This document shows positions 16,695-63,342 of a stretch of 64,000 nucleotides of DNA, one piece after another. The notes beneath the pieces are model-generated. The model was not told the DNA's origin, made no database searches, and worked only from the letters and a program-made list of their open reading frames with translations. How positions within the stretch are numbered: the stretch's first letter is position 1; every line of letters starts with the position of its first letter. This DNA is from Akanthomyces muscarius (Eukaryota; Ascomycota; Sordariomycetes; Hypocreales; Cordycipitaceae), in the NCBI RefSeq assembly GCF_028009165.1, contig NC_079243.1:3596001-3660000 (forward strand), given 5' to 3'. The position numbers were made by a program, and so were the translations under genes.

Positions 16695-16774
16695 GCGTGA
16701 TTGGTTTAGTGGTAAAATTCTCCGTTGCCATCCGCAACGTCGGGGAGCCCTGGGTTCGATTCCCAGATCACGCA
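16695..16774 (+). tRNA. tRNA-Gly (GCC) with a 9-nt intron
   Basis: A 7-bp acceptor stem pairs GCGTGAT (16695-16701) with ATCACGC (16767-16773), with discriminator A at 16774. The D-arm contains GTTTAGTGGTA, typical of eukaryotic tRNA-Gly. The anticodon stem CTCCG/CGGGG encloses TTGCCA, giving anticodon GCC. A 9-nt insertion TCCGCAACG follows position 37. The intron pairs with the anticodon region (GTTGC with GCAAC), as nuclear tRNA introns commonly do. The T-arm is CTGGG-TTCGATT-CCCAG. A run of six T follows directly as the Pol III terminator. The mature length is 71 nt, as expected for tRNA-Gly. Confidence 0.93.
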
Positions 16775-32024: not shown

Positions 32025-35000
32025 ATGTCAGGGACAACGATTGATGATGTCGTAAAGCGACTTAGCAGCGCGGACATAGGTATGAAATGATGTGACAGTC
32101 CGTTGGAGCTCGCATGTCCGGCGACAAGAGCGCAAATCCACCAGGGCGAATGAATACTCACAACTTTTTGCAGATACCAAACTAAAGGTAGAAGCCGCCA
32201 CTACGCTCCGCGACTCTTTGGATCATTATACAAATGGTCCTATATACCCCCCATTCCTCAAGAGGTTGATGCCGATCTTTGTCAACATCTTGCGCGGACC
32301 ATGCATCTTCCAGAGTAACTCACCGGAGCAGGTATGTCGGAGCGCGCCATCATTGCTACATGCACCGACAAGCTAACACGGACACAGAAATTGCGAAACT
32401 GCATCCTCGAGGTCCTTCACAGATTGCCCAGCGCGCCGTCGCCAGCCGAGCCCCTCGAGCCCTACGCCAATGAAGTCGTCGACCTGCTCATGGGTCTGGT
32501 GCGCACCGACAACGAAGACAACGCAACGCTATGTGTCAAAATCACATCCGACATAATGCGCCACCAGCACAAGACGCTGGCCAACAAGGTTCAGCCGTTC
32601 CTGTCGCTGATTCAAGAGCTCTTCGAGCAGATGGATAAGGTCGTGCGTGAACAGCTGGATAATGCCGCTGCTCCTCCCTCGGTGGCTGGAGGCGCACCCT
32701 CCACACCCGGTGGCTCGCAAAACTTCCAGTCTCCTCGGCCCGCCTCGCCCGTTGCGTCTGTAAACGACCTCGGCGCCGATCCTCAACAGCAAAATCGACC
32801 GCTTTTGAAGGGAATGCAATCCTTCAAGGTCCTCTCAGAGTGCCCGATCATAGTGGTGTCGATATTCCAGGTGTACCGCAACACCGTTCAGCAAAATGTC
32901 CGGGCATTCGTCCCCCTCATCAAGTCAGCACTGCAGCTTCAAGCTAGTGCACAGAAGCAAGCGCATGCGGAGGCTGCCGCTAAGGGCAAAATTCACACTG
33001 GCGTCAGCCCTGCCATTAAGAACCGCGCGGCATTCGGCGACTTCATCACTGCTCAGGTCAAAACCATGAGCTTTTTAGCGTACCTGCTCCGAGCACACGC
33101 TTCACAGCTCACGGATTTCCTGCCAAGCTTACCCGATATCGTTGTGCGACTGCTCAAGGACTGTCCGAAGGAAAAGTCTGGCACGCGCAAGGAACTTCTG
33201 ATCGCCATTCGTCACATTATAAACTATAACTGCCGCAAAATCTTCCTACCCAAAATCGACGAGCTTCTCGACGAGCGCACATTGACAGGTGATGGATTGA
33301 CGGTGTACGAGACAATGCGACCACTGGCCTATAGCATGCTCGCGGATCTTATTCACCACGTGCGAGACTCCTTGAGCCCGGAGCAGATCCGCAAGACGGT
33401 CGAAGTCTACACAAGGAATTTGCAAGACCCGTTCCCCGGAACCAGCTTTCAGACCATGAGTGCCAAACTTCTATTGAATATGGCCGAGTGCATCGCGAAA
33501 CTGCCAAATAAAGTTGACGCCCGCCACTACCTCATGATGATCCTCAACGCCATCGGAGACAAGTTTGCTGCCATGAACCGCCAGTATCCAAACGCCGTCA
33601 AACTTTCGAAGCTCTATCACCAACAGCAGGAGAGCAGCGCGCCAGAAACGTATCTTGCCGATAAAGAGAACCCTCCCGACTGGGACGAAACCGACATCTT
33701 CTCTGCCATGCCAATCAAGACCTCGCATCCACGCGACAGAGGTTCTGACCCCGTTGTCGATAACAAGTTTCTCTTCAAAAATCTCATGAATGGCCTGAAA
33801 AACACATTTTATCAGCTGCGAACATGCAATGTTGGGACCCCGATTGATCCAGCAAACGCGCCGTCACACTGGCAGGAAGTAGCATATGGCTTCACTGCAG
33901 AGGAGGTTAACGTCATCGTCAAGCTCTTCCGTGAAGGGGCCTATGTTTTCCGCTACTATGAAATCGAGAAACCGGCGACTGAGTCACAGTACTCTTCACC
34001 TGTTGAGCAAATGGCGAATTTCTACATGATTTCGAGTTCGAAAGAGGAAAAAGATCTCCTGGAAACCTTTGCCACCGTTTTTCATTGCATCGACCCTGCC
34101 ACCTTCCATGAAGTCTTTCAGCAAGAGATCCCACACCTGTACGACATGATCTTTGAGCACACAGCGCTGTTACATATACCCCAGTTTTTCTTAGCCAGTG
34201 AAGCGACGTCGCCGAGTTTTTGCGGCATGTTATTGCAGTTTCTCATTGACCGAATCGACGAAGTGGGTTCGGCCGACGTCAAGAAGGCCTCCATCTTGAT
34301 TCGTCTCTTTAAGCTGGCGTTCATGGCCGTGACTCTCTTTGCTGGGCAAAACGAGCAGGTTCTCCTCCCCCACGTGGTCAACATTGTTACGAAGTCGATT
34401 GAACTTTCGACCAAGGCCGAGGAGCCCATCAATTACTTCCTTCTTCTGCGGGCTCTCTTTCGTAGTATCGGAGGTGGTAAGTTTGAACAGCTCTATAAGC
34501 AGATTTTGCCACTGCTAGAAATGCTGCTTGATGTTCTCAACAATCTGCTCATGGCTGCGCGTAAGCCGGCAGAGAGGGATCTCTACGTCGAGCTATGCTT
34601 GACAGTTCCTGCACGACTGAGCCATCTACTGCCCCATTTGAGCTTCCTCATGCGGCCACTCGTTGTCGCTCTTCGTGCTGGCACTGATCTGGTCGGACAG
34701 GGTCTTCGTACACTGGAACTTTGCGTCGACAATTTAACTACAGATTATCTGGACCCGATCATGGCTCCAGTTATCGACGAGCTCATGACTGCGTTATTTG
34801 ACCATTTACGACCACATCCCTATAACCACTTCCATGCGCATACCACTATGCGCATTCTTGGGAAGCTTGGAGGGCGAAACCGCAAGTTCATGACTGCGGC
34901 TGTACCTCTCGCCTACAAGACATATGCGGACGATTCGTCGAGCTTTGACGTTCGTCTGATTGGTTCCAAGAATGACAGAGCTTTCCCTGCCGACCTAGGT

Positions 35001-38000
35001 ATCGATTTTGCTATCCAGAAGCTCATGGAAGTTGTCAAGAATGGCAAAAGCAACCAAACGAAGCAGTACGAGGACTACTACAAAGGCCAAGCCCTGCACT
35101 TCATCAAGACACAGCTCAAACTGCGTATTGGATACGACCAACTACCAGAAGACTTGCCGCGTGTTGTTCGACTACAGGCACAGGACCTGCTCGCGCGCAA
35201 ACTCGACATCAACTTTGCACCCTTTGAGATTTCGAGCCGTGACAAGTCCATTCCGAAGAAAGACGAGCAAGACCAAATAACAAAGCGCCTTTTGAAAGCA
35301 GTCATGTTTGCCTACTCTATCCCCGACTTTAAGGAGAGTGCTTCAGCGTTCATGCAAGATATTTGCAGACACTTTGCCCTGATTGAAATTGGAAGGTCAC
35401 TTGTCGACTTCAAGCGCAACACGAGTCCGTTCGACCCAAAGGCTGGTGAAGGGCCACTTTTTATCGATACTCGTGTACTCTCCGATGCTATTGTCGAATC
35501 ATTGGCTTCCGATCACTTTGAGGTCCGCGAGGCTGCCCAAAATGCTATCCGCGATCTGTTCCAATGCGCAGCCATCGTGCTCGGCTCTCCCGACCATGTA
35601 GGCCGTCTACCCCTGTTCAGCCACCTGAGCAGTACCTTCTGCCACAGCTGCTATGAAGAGGAGTGGTTCACGAAGGCTGGAGGTAGTCTTGGTATCAACT
35701 TCCTCCTCACTGAGCTCGATTTCGGCGATCAATGGGTTGCTACGAAGCAAATGGAATTCATTCGCTCGCTCATGTACGTCATCAAGGACATGCCGTCTGA
35801 TCTGCCCGAGAAGACGCGATGCCTTGCCCAGACCAGCTTGGAAGTACTTCTCTACCGCATCACGAAAAAAATCAAGAAGGAAGATGCTTTGCCCGTCCAG
35901 CAGCAGCAGGGACAACCCCTAGTGAAGCAGCCCCGGCTCGCGCAAATCTGCATGCAATTCAACAACGAGTTATTCCACATGAACAAATTTGTTCGCGAGA
36001 CCGCCAAGGAGTCGCTTGAGCTCATTGCCAAGGCAGCTAGCTGCGAAGTCTGGGAACTGGTTGAACCTTACAAGGATCGGTTCTTGCAGCCCATCTACGC
36101 CAAACCGCTACGCGCTTTGCCCTTCGCTATTCAGATTGGATATATCAACGCTATGACGTACCATATGAGTCTCAAGAGCGACTGGGTCAAGTTTGATGAC
36201 AACCTTAACCGACTGCTCATGGAGTCGCTTGCTCTTGCAGATGCTAGTGATGAGTCTTTGGCAAACAAGCCAGCTGAGTACCGCACTCATGAGCACATTG
36301 TTAACCTGCGCATTTCATGTATCAAGCTGCTAAGCACTGCCATGTCCTTCGAAGACTTTTCCAACGGACCTACCAAAGGCAAGATTCTGTCAGTCTTCTT
36401 CAAATGCCTGTACTCGGACTCGAAGCCTACTATTACTGCGGCCAACGACGCTCTGAAATCCATCCTACTCATCGATAGACGGCTTCCTAAAGACTTATTA
36501 CAAGGCGGTCTGCGTCCCGTTCTGCAAAGCTTGTCAGATCCTAAACGCCTGAATGTCAACGGTCTTGAAAACCTGTCCCGTCTGCTGAAGCTGCTGACAA
36601 GTTACTTCAAGGTGGAGATTGGCGTGCGCTTGCTGGATCAAGTCGACTCCATTGTTGACCCCAACGCCTGGCAGCAGATTTCCTTCACCTTCTTCGAACA
36701 GAACCCCCAGATGAAGGTTATTGCGGCAATTCTGAACATTTTCCATTTGCTGCCAACCCAGGCCGAGACCTTCAAAGAGCGACTCATCGATTGCCTACTC
36801 AAACTTGAGGATCGATTAAGGAGGACGCACCAAAGCCCCTTCAGATTGCCAATGTATCTGTACATGAACAGATATGCCAAGGAGATCTGGGGCTTCTTAC
36901 TCGGCAGGATTGATGAACTTAAGTACGGGAGACTTCTTGCCCAAGTGCTCCTACATCCAGACAGCGGCCCCATGCGCGAGGTTGCCGCAGCGGAGTTCGA
37001 GACACTGCAGAAGAAGTGCAACGAGGTAGTTGGCCAAAACAACGAAAAGAAGTTTACCGCCATGGTCAATACCATTCACGTCTTGCATTCGCTTTCAGCA
37101 TACCCCGAGGCGTGTGAATGGATGGACAAGAAGGAGCATCTTGTCTGGCTGAAGAACATGGGCAAAGATCTCGAGAGCCACCTCCGCAGCTACACATGCC
37201 CCGCTGCCATGCGCCTTCCTGCTCACCAAGCAGCTGAACAGCTCATGGATGTTCTGGTTAAGACATTGGAACGATCACCAAAGGATTTGGATGCGCTGTT
37301 CAGTCTGATTGAGCCTGTCACCGCCGAGGAGCTCCGCTCGACGCAGGCACTCTTCTCGTTCATCTACAGCCAAGTTATTTCCAGCGATTCAATCGATTTT
37401 TGGAAGACGACGGTGCTTCGATGCTTGGACGCGTACTCTGCCAGAAACGTTTCCAACAAGACAAAATACTTCTTGCTCCACAACATTGTGAACCCAATTG
37501 TTGCCATGGATGTTATGAGACGCTGGAACCAAACGGAACAAGAGAAGCCGCTACGTTTCATGGACAAGTCAGTCATCGACGCTGTAAGCTCCAAAATCTG
37601 GAAGGTTCACCCAGACATGGCTTCGGACGACGCGGCTGGTATTGATCACACTAGATTTGAGGTCCTCCAATTGTCGGCAATGCTCGTCAAGTACTATTAC
37701 ACCACCCTACAAGAAGCTCGTAAGGACATCATCAAGTTTGGGTGGACGTTTATTCGTCTTGAGGACATTATCAACAAGCATGCTGCCTACGTCGTCATCG
37801 GTTACTTCATCGCACACTACGAAACGCCCACTAAGATTGTGAACCAAGTATACCTGTCTCTGCTGAAGACGAATCAGAACGAGGGCCGTGCCTTGGTTAC
37901 GCAGGCCCTGGAATTGATCGCGCCTGTTCTGCCCAAACGCTGCGCCACTTTGCCCAGCGAGAAATTTCCTGCCTGGCAAGTCGCGCCTCGTCGCATCTTG

Positions 38001-41000
38001 GCTGATGAAGGACACAATGTTCAGCAGATGATGAGCATCTTTCAGTTCCTGGTCAAGCACCCAGAGTTATTCTATGACGCGCGTGATAAGTACACCGTTC
38101 TTATAATCACGTCTCTACGCAAGGTCGCTGCGCCGCCAAACCCTTCCCACGAGCACAAGAAGCTCGCTCTTAACATGATGTGGTTGGTTTGGACCTGGGA
38201 GCAGTGGCGCGTTGAGGGAAGAAGCGGTATCATTGCCGGGTCGGTCTCACCTACTTCCAAGAAGCGCAAGCTTGACAGCAATGATCAGCCCGTCGCTTCA
38301 CCTACACTTACGAAGGCTACGCCCGAGTATTTCATCCCCCCCGGCTTCCGGCAAAAAATGCTCAAGTTCCTCGTTGAGTTCATAGCCCAGCTTAATGAGC
38401 GTTATGTGCTCCCTTCTGCCAAGCCGCGGGAGCAAACGCCTACGAATATGCCCGTGCCGCAGCCATCTACAGAGCTTTGCAAGAAGTCGATGTCGTTGCT
38501 CTACAACTTGGTTCAACGCCAGTACTGGGGTGACCTGGAACTGGACTTGTTCCCCAATGTCACTGATGTTATGCTCGCCAGTGAGAAGACGCAGGCTATT
38601 CTCAATGCCGACCCATCCGACAAAGAGAAATACGACGAGAAGTTCCTTACAAGCATAATCAATACTCTGCAAGTTGTCCGCATTCTCTTGAATGCCAAGT
38701 CGGACGACTGGATCCAAAAGAATATTCCCGCTGTGCAGAAGGTTTTGGAGAAATGTCTGAAGTCTGAAAACCCAGAAATCCAAGACTGCTTGCATCTCGA
38801 AGACAAGAAATACGACGATGGCCGCGAACTGAAGTCCACTATTAAGCGTGTCTTGGATGCTGTCCCCGAGGACACTCCTATGGAAGACGCCGATGCGGAT
38901 GGCGAGCCTGAAGCACCGACTTCGGAGATCATTGCTTACTTGTCTCAGATTGCGACTGAGCAAATGAACAATGCCGCTTACGTTTCCGGTGTCAACATTC
39001 TATGGTCTTTGGAGGACCGCAAACCTGCTGTCATTGACCAGCATATCCCCTCTCTCATGAAGGCTCTCCAGAGCAAGCATGCCAGAGAACATGTTCAGCA
39101 CTACAACGCCCTGTCGAACGCCGCCAACGGAGCCCAGCGCGCTCCGGACGCTGCAGCTACCACCGGCGAACTTCCCGCGTACGAGCTCGAGCTTCAGACG
39201 AGATTGATGATCAAAGAAATCCAGGTCGTTGCGTTAAGGATGGAGACTTTGGGAGACAATAGACGCCCTTTTCTGAGCGTCTTGGCAACTCTGGTCGAAA
39301 AATCGCTCCACATCGATCTCTGCACCGAGATTCTCAATATGGTTGAAAGCTGGGTATTTCGAGTTGAAGGAACGTGGCCGACACTTAAGGAGAAGACGGC
39401 TGTGCTTCACAAGATGCTGTGCTTCGAGCCTAGGCAAGACCCTACAATGCTGTCCAAGTTCCTGGAGCTGGTGATCAAAATCTACGAGGACCCCAGAATT
39501 ACCAGAACCGAGCTCACCGTGCGTATGGAACATGCCTTCTTGATCGGAACTAGAGCCGCCGATGTCGAGATGCGCAACCGTTTCATGGCGATTTTTGACA
39601 AAAGCCTTTCAAAGACTGCTAGCGTACGTTTGTCCTATATCTTGACTGCACAGAACTGGGACACCCTCGCCGATTCATACTGGCTGGCGCAAGCCTCGCA
39701 GCTCCTGTTTGGAGCTGTCGAAATGAACTCAGCTATCCAACTGCATCCAGACGACTACCGGGTCCTATCGGCGTCGCAGCTGGCTGCTGTCTACTCGAAG
39801 GACACGACTCGTGAGCCCACTGGTATGCCGGATGATAAGTTTGAGGATCTGATGTCGAAACACCGCCGCTTCGTCCAGGAGTTGGGCGAGGTCAAGGTCA
39901 AGGATATTATCGAACCCCTCGCGCAGCTGCAGCATGCCGACAATCAGCTCGCTCACCAGCTTTGGCTGGCCTTATTCCCCATGTTTTGGTCTGCTACGGC
40001 TCGTGATGAGCGACCTGAACTGCAGCGAGGTATTGTCGCTCTTTTGACCAAGGACTACCACAGCCGCCAGATTGACAAGCGGCCCAATGTGGTTCAATCC
40101 CTCGTCGAGGGAGCCGGCAAAACTTGGCCAGAGTGCAAGCTGCCTCCCCATGTACTCAAGTTCGAGGCCAAGACTTATGACGCGTGGTATGCGGCTCTTG
40201 TGCAGCTCGAAAATGCGGCCATCAAACCCATGGGCGACTCAGCCACTGTCCGGGAAAGTAACCTGGACGCTCTTGTCGAACTGTACGGGTCTTTGCAGGA
40301 AGATGACCTGTTCTATGGTACATGGCGGCGCCGCTGCCAGTTTGTGGAGACGAATGCCGGTTTGTCCTACGAGCAGAATGGCATGTGGGACAAGGCACAG
40401 AAACTGTACGAGAATGCCCAAATCAAGGCGCGAACAGGTGTAATCCCCTTTTCACAAGCAGAGTACATGCTATGGGAAGACCACTGGGTTCTCTGTGCGC
40501 AGAAACTACAGCAGTGGGAAATTCTACAGGATTTTGCTAAGCACGAAAACTTCCAAGATTTGCTGCTCGAATGTGCCTGGCGCAACACGGAGATGTGGCA
40601 GGAAGATCAACATCGCGAAGCCCTGGATAATATCATCAAGGGTGTCATGGACGCGCCAACACCTCGCCGCGCTTTCTTCCAGGCATTCATGTCCTTGCTC
40701 AAGTACCACAATCAACAGGAGTCCATTACTGACTTCGGCCGTGTTTGCGATGAGGCTATCCAACTTTCTATTCGCAAGTGGCACCAACTGCCTGGTCGGT
40801 TGACCAATGCGCACATTCCCCTGCTGCAGAACTTCCAGGAGCTGGTTGAGATGCATGATGCCAGTGTCATCTGCCAGAGCTTGGCGAGCACCAATGCTTC
40901 CAACCTCGATGTCAAATCTGGAGAGCTCAAGCTTCTTCTGGGTGCCTGGCGCGACCGTCTCCCCAATGTTTGGGATGACATCACTGCCTGGCAGGATCTT

Positions 41001-43703
41001 GTGACATGGCGACAGCACATCTTCGGTCTCATTAACCATACCTACCTGCAACTGCTACCTCAGCCTGGAGGACAAAATGGTGGTGGTGCTGCGTCCTCAT
41101 TTGCCTATCGAGGCTACCACGAGACTGCCTGGATTATCAACAGATTTGCTCACGTCGCACGCAAGCACAATCTGCCTGATGTTTGCATCAGCCAGCTCAG
41201 CCGCATCTATACTCTGCCGAACATTGAGATTCAGGAAGCTTTCTTGAAGCTTCGCGAGCAAGCCAAGTGCCATTATGAGAATCCCGAGGAGCTCACCAGT
41301 GGCCTGGATGTGATCAACAACACCAATCTCAACTACTTTAATCCTCAGCAGAAGGCCGAATTCTACACTCTGAAGGGCATGTTCGAGGAGAAACTGAAGC
41401 ACAAGGACGAAGCCGATGCTGCGTACGGAACTGCTTTGTACTTTGACATTGGCGCTGCCAAGGCGTGGGCCGAATGGGGCCACTTCAACGACCGCAAGTT
41501 TAAGGAGAATCCAGCCGATCTGATGGCTGCCCGTCAAGCCCTGACGTCGTATCTGCAGGCCGCCGGTAGCTACAAAAACGCCAAATCGCGCAAGCTTCTT
41601 GCTCGCATATTGTGGCTACTGAGCCTTGACGACTCGAAGGGCAGCATTGCCGCGGGTTTTGAGGACTGCAAGGGGGACACCCCCATCTGGTACTGGATAA
41701 CTTATATCCCGCAGCTACTTACCGGCCTGGGCCACAAGGAAGCGCCCCGCGTCTACCAGATTCTGCTCAGCATTGCCAAGTCTTACCCGCAGGCACTGTA
41801 CTTTCAGCTCCGCACCAACCGAGAGGATATGCTGGTGATCAAGAAGAACCAAGAAGCCAAGGAGAAGGCACGCCAGCGACAACAGTCCATGGCAAACAAC
41901 AAGGCAAACGCTTCACCCTCTGTGTCCAAGTCTGAAACGCCCAAGCCCGACAACGCATCTCGTCCTGGTACTGCCAACAACGGCGATGCCACTGTCAAGA
42001 CTGAAGGCGACTCGGCAGCTACGCCTGCAACCCCGGCCACCGCAGCAGCAGCCTTTACTCCAGCTACTGGCTCCGATGCTAAAACCCCGGCTCAGGCAGC
42101 ACAGAACGGGAAGAAGCCACCGTGGGAGCTCACCGAAGAAATCATGTCGGTTCTCAAAACAGCATTCCCTCTCTTGGCCCTGTCAATGGAGACCATGGTG
42201 GACCAAATTCAAAAGCACTTCAAGTGTCCACCTGACGAGGATGCGTACCGACTGATTGTGGCACTATTGAACGATGCGTTGACATACGTCAGTCGCACGC
42301 CTTCATCCTTTGCCCGAAGCGTCAAGCTCCCTTCCGCGACCGAGACCAATATTACGCGTTTTGCGGAGACAATCCTCCCGAGCCACATCAAGAAGTCGTT
42401 TGAGGCTGACTTTGTGGATGTCAAGCCGACAATGTACGAATATATCCACAAGTTGCGTCGCTGGCGGACCAAGTTTGAGGAGAAGCTGGATCGTCGCATC
42501 TGCCACACGCCTCTTGAAGCCTTTTCGCCTCACTTGAGCGAGTTCCGCTACCAGAAGTTTGACGAGGTCGAGGTACCGGGCCAGTACTTGCAGCACAAGG
42601 ATAAGAACCAGGACTTCATTCGCATCGAGCGTTTCTTGCCCAATGTCGACCTCGTACGCTCTATCAGCGCCTCGTATCGTCGTCTGAAGATGCGAGGTCA
42701 CGATGGCAGTGTTCATTCGTGGGCTGTTCAGCACCCAGCCGCACGGCACTGTCGCCGTGAGGAGCGCATCTTGCAGCTCTTCCGCCAACTTAACCAGACA
42801 CTTGGACGCAAGAAGGAGAGTCGACGCCGCGACTTGCAATTTACGCTACCACTCATGGTCCCTCTGGCGCCTCACATTAGAATTGTGCAAGAGGACACGT
42901 CGTACATAACGCTGCATGGAATATACGAGGACCATTGTCGACGTACGGGCATGCAAAAGGACGAGCCTGTCCTGTTTACGCTGGAGAAACTCCGCGGTGT
43001 GCTTGAAAATAAGAGCCAAGGCAAGCCAGAGCTGACCCCAACAGCGCGCCTCGAGGTCTTCAACGCTATCCAGGAGAAGTGGGTGCCGCCAACTGTCGTC
43101 TTGGAATACTTCCAAAAGGTGTTCCCTCAGTTTGCCGAGTTCTGGTTGTTCCGTCGCCAGTTCTCGTATCAGCTGTCGTCGCTGACATTCATGACCTACA
43201 TCCTGTTCATGCACAACCGCTACCCTGCCAAGATGAATATTGCACGCGGAACAGGAAACATTTGGGGCTCTGAGCTTATGTCATTCATGGGAGCCAACAA
43301 GCCATTCTTCCATAACCCCGAGCCGGTGCCTTTCCGACTCACGCCCAATCTGCAAACTCTCATGGGCCCCCTGGCGACCGAAGGCATCTTTGCGTGCGCC
43401 GTCATGGCGATTGCACGATGCCTGACGGAGCCCGAGGATGAGCTCGAGCACGCGCTGACGCTCTTTGTGCGCGACGAAATGATCTTCTGGCTGACCAGCA
43501 GCCACCGCAACGGCATCAGCGAAAGCCAGCTGCGCGAGTCGGTGCAGGTCAACAGCGACTCGATTGTCAAGCGCGCCGCAAGCTTGGCGCACAACCCTTC
43601 GGGCAACTTGCCTGCCAACCAGACAGTCATTGATGCGGTCGCCCAGGCAGTGAACCCAATGAACCTGGCGCAGTGCGATGTTCTATGGATGCCATATCTG
43701 TGA
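32025..43703 (+). CDS. tra1: Tra1, PIKK-family pseudokinase scaffold of SAGA and NuA4
   Basis: Three exons (32025-32079, 32174-32331, 32388-43703) encode 3842 aa, comparable to yeast Tra1. Tra1 is the activator-binding subunit shared by the SAGA and NuA4 acetyltransferase complexes. The small 5' exons supply [13 protein letters not shown] and [21 protein letters not shown], and splicing then joins to [14 protein letters not shown]. The body is HEAT/TPR-type alpha-solenoid with a FAT region. A low-complexity linker (about 3245-3310) precedes the kinase-like domain. That domain lacks catalytic motifs: where active PIKKs have GDRHxxNI, this has [13 protein letters not shown], and no DFG is present. 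It ends in a FATC-like tail, DVLWMPYL. A basic cluster KKRKLD lies near residue 2028. The last exon is 11.3 kb with no interruption. The ATG at 32334 lies inside the second intron and is not the start. Confidence 0.96.
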
Positions 43704-62225: not shown

Positions 62226-62363
62226 GGACCCATGGCGCAACGGTAGCGCGTCAGATTCCAGTATTGGAACTTCCTGAAGGTGTACGTACCAACAACATCT
62301 TTAACACAATAACTACTTGTGTCTAACCCCATAACAGTAGGCGTTCGAATCGCCTTGGGTTCA
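62226..62363 (+). tRNA. tRNA-Trp (CCA), copy 1, with two introns (one mRNA-like)
   Basis: The acceptor stem pairs GGACCCA (62226-62232) with TGGGTTC (62356-62362), discriminator A62363. The D-arm is GCGC-AACGGTA-GCGC (62235-62249) and includes box A TGGCGCAACGG. The anticodon stem is TCAGA (62251-62255) with CCTGA (62273-62277), including one A-C mismatch at the loop end. The loop TTCCAG gives anticodon CCA. Intron 1 (62262-62271, 10 nt) follows position 37, and TGGAA there can pair with TTCCA. The T-arm AGGCG-TTCGAAT-CGCCT (62339-62355) is perfect and holds box B. Intron 2 (62282-62337, 56 nt) sits in the variable loop and is GT-AG with TCTAAC. Removing both leaves 72 nt with variable loop AGGTT. 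A T6 run follows at about 62382. Confidence 0.85.
62282..62337 (+). other. Spliceosomal-type GT-AG insertion in variable loop of tRNA-Trp copy 1
   Basis: This 56-nt insertion starts GTACGTACC and ends CCATAACAG, with TCTAAC 11-16 nt before the end. Its removal restores AGGT+T, the canonical five-base variable loop of eukaryotic tRNA-Trp. The length and signals match the protein-gene introns of this window (for example donor GTACGT in the kinase and UstYa-like genes). Confidence 0.75.
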
Positions 62364-62481
62364 ATTCCCTGTTCCGAACAATTTTTTGCACTTTTCTCGA
62401 ATTTTTGACGATTTTTTTCTTGGCCGTAGCAATACATCGTGCCACTATTCAAGCGGACTTAAGCGGCCTCGAAGCCAAGCC

Positions 62482-62619
62482 GGACCCATGGCGCAACGGT
62501 AGCGCGTCAGATTCCAGTTCCTGGAACTTCCTGAAGGTGTACGTAATCTTATCCTGCCTCCCTTTGCGAGTGCAATATCTAACTCCTTAACAGTAGGCGT
62601 TCGAATCGCCTTGGGTTCA
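62482..62619 (+). tRNA. tRNA-Trp (CCA), copy 2, with two introns (one mRNA-like)
   Basis: The exons are identical to copy 1: acceptor strands at 62482-62488 and 62612-62618, discriminator A62619, D-arm at 62491-62505, anticodon loop TTCCAG at 62512-62517, and T-arm at 62595-62611. Intron 1 (62518-62528, 11 nt) differs slightly from copy 1 but keeps TGGAA opposite TTCCA. Intron 2 (62539-62593, 55 nt) occupies the same variable-loop site, again GT-AG with TCTAAC. The mature length is 72 nt. The same A-C mismatch closes the anticodon stem. A T8 run, the Pol III terminator, follows at about 62640-62647. It lies 256 bp downstream of copy 1 in the same orientation. Confidence 0.85.
62539..62593 (+). 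other. Spliceosomal-type GT-AG insertion in variable loop of tRNA-Trp copy 2
   Basis: This 55-nt insertion starts GTACGTAAT and ends CCTTAACAG, with TCTAAC 11-16 nt before the end. The interior is unrelated to the copy 1 insertion, while the GTACGTA start, the TCTAAC and the TAACAG end are shared. Confidence 0.75.
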
Positions 62620-63342
62620 ATCCCCTACTTCCGGATCAATTTTTTTTGGTCGTGCCCCGCGCTGGTGCCCCGCGATGGAGGGGCAGCGAGGATGAGGGGT
62701 TCAACTCGCGTAGCGACAGACTTTTTTTTTTAGCTTATGCATATGCGTCTTTGACTGGTAAAAGCATGTACATCGTTCTTTCGTTGCTGTCTGTTCTGCT
62801 TTATTTATTCCTCGCTGTCCTACCGCGAGAAGCAAGTACAGGTTCAACGATATTCGCAAGAGAAACAGAACTTGCGACTCATAGAACCCACGGTATGCAG
62901 GCGCATTGTACACGACTTCTTTGATTCAAATGGCAGTTATATCTCCGGCTACTGTCCATTTGTAGGATTCTTTGACGCTAGAAAATGTTTGAGCTTGATT
63001 TATTGTTCCTTAACAAAAAACTCGATTTCAATATGCATTTGAAGAGTATACATGATAATTCTAAGCTGGATAGAGCCGCGTGGGTGTCCAACAATTCTCT
63101 ACAGTCGCTGTCATGTTCCTGTCTAAAAGTGAGCAGTTATCCAAACTTCGCTACCCGCCTCCAACGCCCTGCGCTGCCTGTGTAGTGCTTTCTCCCCGCA
63201 TGAATCAGTGTCCATGTCGTCTATGCCGCTTGCCTCTATTCCTGTATCGTCCATATGTCTAGTCTATAGCAATGTTAATATTCCTGTCTCATCCCAGCAC
63301 CTGCCCCATCATTCGAACAAGAACCAAGAACCGTTCATCGTC
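62620..63342. other. Intergenic, tRNA trailer and 3' flank of the LRR-like gene
   Basis: After the T8 terminator comes a GC-rich block in which GTGCCCCGCG occurs twice (62652-62661 and 62665-62674), then a T10 run near 62724-62734, then AT-rich sequence. No protein gene was seen. The GC block plus T-run could be a third, decayed Pol III unit, but it does not fold as a tRNA. Confidence 0.4.

Follow-up and report, generated by a model that had tools for sequence, protein, structure and literature searches.

Textbooks present nuclear tRNA splicing as a pathway of its own, run by an endonuclease and a ligase. The canonical eukaryotic tRNA introns (Sen introns, at 37/38) are also present in the tRNA-Trp and tRNA-Arg genes considered here; unlike them, a further set of inserts in the tRNA genes of Akanthomyces muscarius occupies the D loop, 31/32, 35/36 or 47/48, forms no bulge-helix-bulge (BHB) at its GT-AG junctions and carries mRNA splice signals. 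Non-canonical tRNA introns have been described: for eukaryotes, passages of PMC4090602 name those of nucleomorphs and a red alga, calling the splicing of the shortest unknown, and the introns of archaea, Cyanidioschyzon and nucleomorphs treated there resemble the present inserts in lying off 37/38, sometimes two or more to a gene. Those archaeal and algal introns are, however, discussed in the same passages as endonuclease substrates, the Guillardia ones being 3-24 nt long, whereas the inserts described here have the arrangement GT-CTAAY-AG and a length of 51-60 nt; the word stem spliceosom is absent from the text of that paper. Spliceosomal introns are carried by fungal U3 and U6 genes; according to an excerpt of PMC5832005 (2017), frequent interruption is known for no other small structured RNAs. 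Fungal U6 and U3 introns share with the present inserts the GT-AG ends and the fungal branch site within a small structured RNA, U6 being a Pol III RNA (PMC10484740, in part); unlike U6 and U3, the host here is a tRNA, whose promoter is internal and whose maturation follows other steps, and, unlike intron-bearing fungal U6, both U6 matches of this genome are uninterrupted (the gene at L077:1501-1601 is intronless, and the second match, on contig C11, is full length by match span). Ordinary U2-type mRNA introns of Hypocreales have the same length, donor, branch site and acceptor (as given in part of PMC5677156), with mRNA as their host instead of the Pol III tRNA predicted here. No description of spliceosomal introns in tRNA genes was found among the listed titles and abstract openings of the open-licence literature; preprints and most subscription papers lie outside this scope, so an earlier description is possible. 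As a tRNA intron, the insert would be of a new kind by its machinery, spliceosomal introns in U6 and U3 being already known.

The window, that is, the whole stretch of 64,000 nucleotides that was analysed, is part of contig C3 of the 36.2-Mb genome, which is assembled in 12 contigs, one of 7.45 Mb. A malate synthase open reading frame in it shows 100% identity, over its 318 aa, with proteins from Akanthomyces lecanii and A. muscarius (Hypocreales, Cordycipitaceae). The window also contains a long single open reading frame of 3789 aa (32334-43703) with Tra1, FAT and PI3/4-kinase domains, a predicted Tra1-like subunit of acetyltransferase complexes, and a tRNA gene (16695-16774) that ARAGORN names Asp(atc) and that looks by eye like tRNA-Gly(GCC) containing a small intron of ordinary type; the score of this tRNA gene is shared by four more loci of the genome. 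Two tRNA-Trp loci, at 62226-62363 and 62482-62619, had been singled out in a preliminary description, and their coordinates, boundaries and letters match it. Their features are as follows.

62226..62261, + strand: tRNA-Trp copy 1, exon 1 (up to nucleotide 37, anticodon CCA)
62262..62271, + strand: copy 1, ordinary 37/38 intron TATTGGAACT, 10 nt (central helix 4/4 pairs)
62272..62281, + strand: copy 1, middle exon TCCTGAAGGT (nucleotides 38-47)
62282..62337, + strand: copy 1, spliceosomal-type insert of 56 nt, GTACGTA...TCTAAC...TAACAG, at 47/48
62323..62327, + strand: copy 1, branch-site motif CTAAC
62338..62363, + strand: copy 1, last exon (nucleotides 48-73)
62358..62368, + strand: copy 1, B-box-like GGTTCAATTCC, spanning the tRNA end and the trailer
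62382..62387, + strand: copy 1, T6 run, Pol III-type terminator
62482..62517, + strand: tRNA-Trp copy 2, exon 1
62518..62528, + strand: copy 2, ordinary 37/38 intron TTCCTGGAACT, 11 nt
62529..62538, + strand: copy 2, middle exon
62539..62593, + strand: copy 2, spliceosomal-type insert of 55 nt, at 47/48
62579..62583, + strand: copy 2, branch-site motif CTAAC
62594..62619, + strand: copy 2, last exon
62614..62624, + strand: copy 2, B-box-like GGTTCAATCCC
62640..62647, + strand: copy 2, T8 run, Pol III-type terminator

Removal of both the 10- or 11-nt segment at 37/38 and the 56- or 55-nt segment at 47/48 yields, from either copy, the identical 72-nt tRNA-Trp(CCA) that had been proposed, with 7/7 pairs in the acceptor stem, 5/5 in the T stem, 4/4 in the D stem and 4/5 in the anticodon stem, and with A as N73; the variable loop AGGTT is restored in both copies by removal of the insert, again as described. 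In both copies the foot of the anticodon stem carries an A31-C39 mismatch, where a base of tRNA-Trp might be modified or edited. Comparison of gene callers on intact and spliced forms, which the preliminary description had put forward as a check, turned out in favour of the double removal: ARAGORN gives Trp(CCA) for both copies only after both segments are taken out, naming the unspliced copies Thr and Cys, and the copies with the large insert alone removed Trp and undetermined (ccag). Both unspliced loci score above the cut-off of Rfam RF00005, with 39.2 and 39.8 bits over a length of 138 nt in either case. Two other layouts were rejected by inspection: a donor at AAG|GTGTAC would leave a 3-nt variable loop, and with the downstream GGGTTCAATTCCC as T arm of the 3' half, the acceptor strand fails to pair with nucleotides 1-7, so the GGGTTCAATTCCC region is treated as trailer. 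The 3' trailers (62364-62387 and 62620-62647) are, unlike the diverged insert interiors, conserved between the copies (21/26 columns, 0/1000 shuffles as good), and they overlap a near-perfect second B box (GGTTCAATTCC / GGTTCAATCCC).

Both inserts start with GTACGTA, contain TCTAAC and finish with TAACAG, in agreement with the earlier account, whose spacing of 11-16 nt between TCTAAC and the insert end is here corrected to 11 nt from branch A to final G in both copies. The exons are the same in the two copies, the insert interiors are unlike and the splice signals are shared, a contrast on which the preliminary description had laid weight: 17/44 interior columns align, and 1895/2000 shuffles align as well, while GTACGTA, TCTAAC and TAACAG are identical. 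The arrangement GTNNGT / CTRAY / AG arose in 0/20,000 mononucleotide shuffles of each Trp insert and occurs in 20 of 767,256 window segments (six lengths, both strands), two of which are the Trp inserts themselves and others possibly real mRNA introns.

That the insert signals resemble spliceosomal introns of this genome had been claimed as well, and is supported. Among 24 donor hexamers in 0.28 Mb, those most often followed by a branch site and an acceptor were GTAAGT (15/69), GTATGT (15/94) and GTACGT (13/85, including the two Trp inserts). Two protein-gene introns recognized as tblastn gaps, their limits set by eye, are 55 nt (GTGCGC..GCTAAT..CAG) and 58 nt (GTAAGT..GCTAAT..CAG) long. For introns of Fusarium, another member of Hypocreales, part of PMC5677156 gives CTRAY in 91% and YAG in 93%, with the RAG|Y acceptor rare at 2.18%; the insert of a tRNA-Thr gene described below, with AAG before T, is such a case.

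Inserts of the same type are found at further loci of the genome. A pattern that combined a branch site with AG and a T loop gave 19 genome matches and led to a tRNA-Thr with an insert, namely Thr(UGU), 0.8 kb from an intact tRNA-Thr(CGU); sixteen other matches to this pattern had no Rfam match up to E = 1. A wider pattern gave 20 matches, ten of which are insert-bearing genes (the two Trp genes and eight more); the remaining ten comprise ordinary-type genes for Ile (two), Glu (three) and Arg (three), identified by eye (in the case of one Arg gene on its matched letters alone), and two loci without an Rfam tRNA match. The CTGAY branch variant near T arms had three matches in the genome, none tRNA-like by eye. 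The eight additional carriers are listed here.

L078, L079 and L080: Ser(AGA), three genes; insert GTAAGTAA..CTAAC or CTAAT..AG in the D loop, after GTGGTT
L081, L082 and L083: Ser(GCT), three genes; insert GTACGTA..CTAACAGCCTCTCAG inside the anticodon, at 35/36
L001:2408-2539, minus strand: Thr(UGU), one gene; 60-nt insert GTTAGT..TTCTAAC..AAAAAG inside the anticodon, at 35/36
L099: Arg(UCU), one gene; insert GTGCGT..GCTAAC..TAG at 31/32, with an ordinary 37/38 intron as well

The number of carriers is at least ten, a lower bound, as other branch motifs, T loops and positions lay outside the patterns. Because the patterns required CTAAC or CTAAY followed by AG near a T loop, with 7-23 nt allowed from branch A to G, the branch site and acceptor of the eight additional genes were partly chosen; the donor and the exact junction formed no part of the patterns. 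A joint DNA search of the genome, with insert-free Ser(AGA), Ser(GCT) and Thr(UGU) sequences as queries (8 candidates, all scored), returned no uninterrupted copies of these genes, finding the carriers broken at their inserts and the Thr(CGU) paralogue intact at 93%. In three Ser(GCT) genes and Thr(UGU), ARAGORN itself excises segments of insert length (54, 51, 51 and 60 nt) and reads gct and tgt, and the anticodon loop of Thr(UGU) without its insert is CTTGTAA; the unspliced Ser(AGA) genes are detected neither by Rfam nor by ARAGORN, so a standard scan misses them. The last 15 nt of the Trp copy 1 insert (62323-62337) and of the Ser(AGA) insert at L078 are common (CTAACCCCATAACAG), a possible trace of exchange among tRNA introns. 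Genes of relatives were sought with four patterns in viral contigs, yielding one chance match that is no tRNA (L098), and with two further patterns in a non-fungal genome-contig collection, yielding zero matches.

The ten carriers agree in structure once the insert (and, in Trp and Arg, also the 37/38 intron) is removed: acceptor stems of 7/7 and T stems of 5/5 pairs in 10/10 genes, anticodon stems of 5/5 in eight and 4/5 in the two Trp genes, and D stems of 4/4 in three (both Trp and Arg) and 3/4 in seven. ARAGORN reads the spliced carriers as Trp, Ser(aga), Ser(gct), Thr(tgt) and Arg(tct). The junction is unique in 9/10, no shift within 8 nt yielding the same product; that of Thr can be read as GT-AG or, one base off, as GG-AA. 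GTNNGT stands at the exact exon end in 10/10 (GTACGT in five, GTAAGT in three, GTTAGT and GTGCGT), the branch site is CTAAC in nine inserts and CTAAT in one, the acceptor is YAG in 9/10 and AAG, before T, in Thr, and insert length is 51-60 nt. Branch A lies 10-12 nt from the final G in 10/10 inserts, partly a search criterion for the eight outside the window; this is a narrower range than the 6-36 nt given in the literature for introns of fungi, although the search behind those eight allowed only 7-23 nt. A T run follows the gene, with no TTTT within it, in 10/10 carriers. Compensatory pairs distinguish copies of Ser(GCT) (A2-T71 / T2-A71) and of Ser(AGA) (C6-G67 / G6-C67), and the variable arm of Ser(AGA) shows, by eye, a C-G to G-C change. 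None of the inserts is at the canonical 37/38, and by direct reading all fall in the interval from the A box to the B box, which leaves the internal promoter whole.

Analysis of the letters thus makes it very probable that the inserts of the Trp loci are spliceosomal introns in functional nuclear Pol III tRNA-Trp(CCA) genes, each of which would have two introns removed by two machines. Transcription would be by Pol III, directed by the internal A and B boxes and ending at the T run; the spliceosome would remove the 55/56-nt GT-AG intron at 47/48, with U1 at GTACGT, U2 at TCTAAC and the 3' cut at CAG; and the tRNA endonuclease and ligase would take out the 10/11-nt intron at 37/38. Spliceosomal removal would probably precede the endonuclease step, because the endonuclease reads the folded tRNA body and the insert disturbs this fold. 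Counted against the spliceosomal reading are the lack, in Pol III transcripts, of the cap that aids splicing, the A31-C39 mismatch of the Trp copies, the rare acceptor of the Thr insert and the full-length, intronless U6 matches.

An improbable alternative makes the inserts ectopic tRNA introns that the tRNA splicing endonuclease would excise at a BHB, the mechanism suggested for archaea and a red alga. Non-canonical tRNA introns do exist, also beside a canonical one within the same gene (PMC4090602, in part), and with a slide of up to 2 nt, 6/10 inserts form a BHB-like fold: three Ser(GCT) and Thr at the canonical 37/38, Arg with a shift of one base upstream, and one Ser(AGA) with a shift of two bases in that direction. 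At the GT-AG junctions, however, a BHB (central helix of at least 3 pairs and exon helix of at least 2) is formed by 0/10 inserts versus 5/7 ordinary 37/38 introns at their own junctions, the two failing controls being His introns that are perhaps wrongly delimited, and neither Trp insert forms one at any slide of up to 2 nt. A cut at 37/38, the only site at which the yeast endonuclease is said to cut in an excerpt of PMC4033280, would change the anticodon of Ser(GCT) to GCG and that of Thr to TGG, with U37, and GT-CTAAY-AG is obeyed in 10/10 at the tRNA-restoring junction, which also argues against the endonuclease. This enzyme fits the inserts worse than the spliceosome.

We consider it very unlikely that the interrupted genes are dead, with working copies outside the assembly or too divergent. 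What favours this idea is that the RF00005 genome search scored 63 of 781 candidates, and hence is no census, and that the DNA search method passes over very common words. Against it, a hunt for further tRNA-Trp(CCA) genes, suggested in the preliminary description, found none beyond the two loci in five genome searches of three kinds: a DNA search of the genome with the insert-free Trp gene returned the two window loci alone; A-box/TCCA/T-loop patterns at three spacings gave 18 + 17 + 22 = 57 matches, judged by eye on printed letters (the longer ones on 80 letters), of which only the window pair reads as tRNA-Trp and one runs, by eye, into a likely tRNA-Cys; and a 26-base Trp exon pattern with up to 3 mismatches had two matches in the whole genome, both of them the window copies. 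ARAGORN named no Trp on 30 loci taken from the RF00005 search. No intact copy turned up for four isoacceptors in an assembly as contiguous as noted above (12 contigs, one of 7.45 Mb), the Trp exons are identical though the intron interiors have drifted apart, and other carriers show the compensatory pairs given above. The preliminary reading of a functional intron is further strengthened, against that of pseudogenes, by the presence of this insert type at other sites of eight more tRNA genes, something not expected if the loci were pseudogenes.

There is hardly any likelihood that mature tRNAs retain the inserts, for example as a long variable arm in Trp: although the unspliced genes for Trp, Ser(GCT), Thr and Arg are recognized by Rfam with their inserts left unaligned, the Trp insert interiors have no common sequence, decoding by Ser(GCT) and Thr would be abolished by inserts inside their anticodons, and unspliced Ser(AGA) is invisible to both Rfam and ARAGORN. 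The catalytic core of group I and group II introns is far larger than 51-60 nt. Self-splicing introns of these groups, of which group I occurs in bacterial and plastid tRNAs (PMC4033280, in part), may be dismissed, there being no Rfam group I or group II match at the insert loci.

Under the spliceosomal reading, the recurrence of the same intron type in Ser(AGA), Ser(GCT), Thr(UGU) and Arg(UCU) points to a class of spliceosome-dependent nuclear tRNAs, with four sites and five tRNAs in this fungus and possibly also elsewhere in the family, of which Trp and Arg(UCU) would also need the endonuclease; judged by sequence, such a class is probable. Because the introns are at four different sites in five tRNAs, always between the A and B boxes, they appear to have been gained repeatedly, and because the tRNA product leaves little doubt on the exon junction, the loci are clean cases for the study of intron origin. 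The structure of the inserts explains why gene finders, here Rfam and ARAGORN, miss or misname such genes. If the interpretation is true, a tRNA needing the spliceosome as well joins the two splicing pathways, and the spliceosome can act on a Pol III transcript that has no cap and is structured as a tRNA. Since the searches for Trp, Ser(AGA), Ser(GCT) and Thr(UGU) genes turned up interrupted copies only, decoding of UGG, UCU/UCC, AGU/AGC and ACA would need the spliceosome. With mRNA-type introns in tRNA genes that include the only Trp genes found, the cell probably needs its mRNA-splicing machine for some tRNAs, and its translation capacity would be tied to spliceosome activity.
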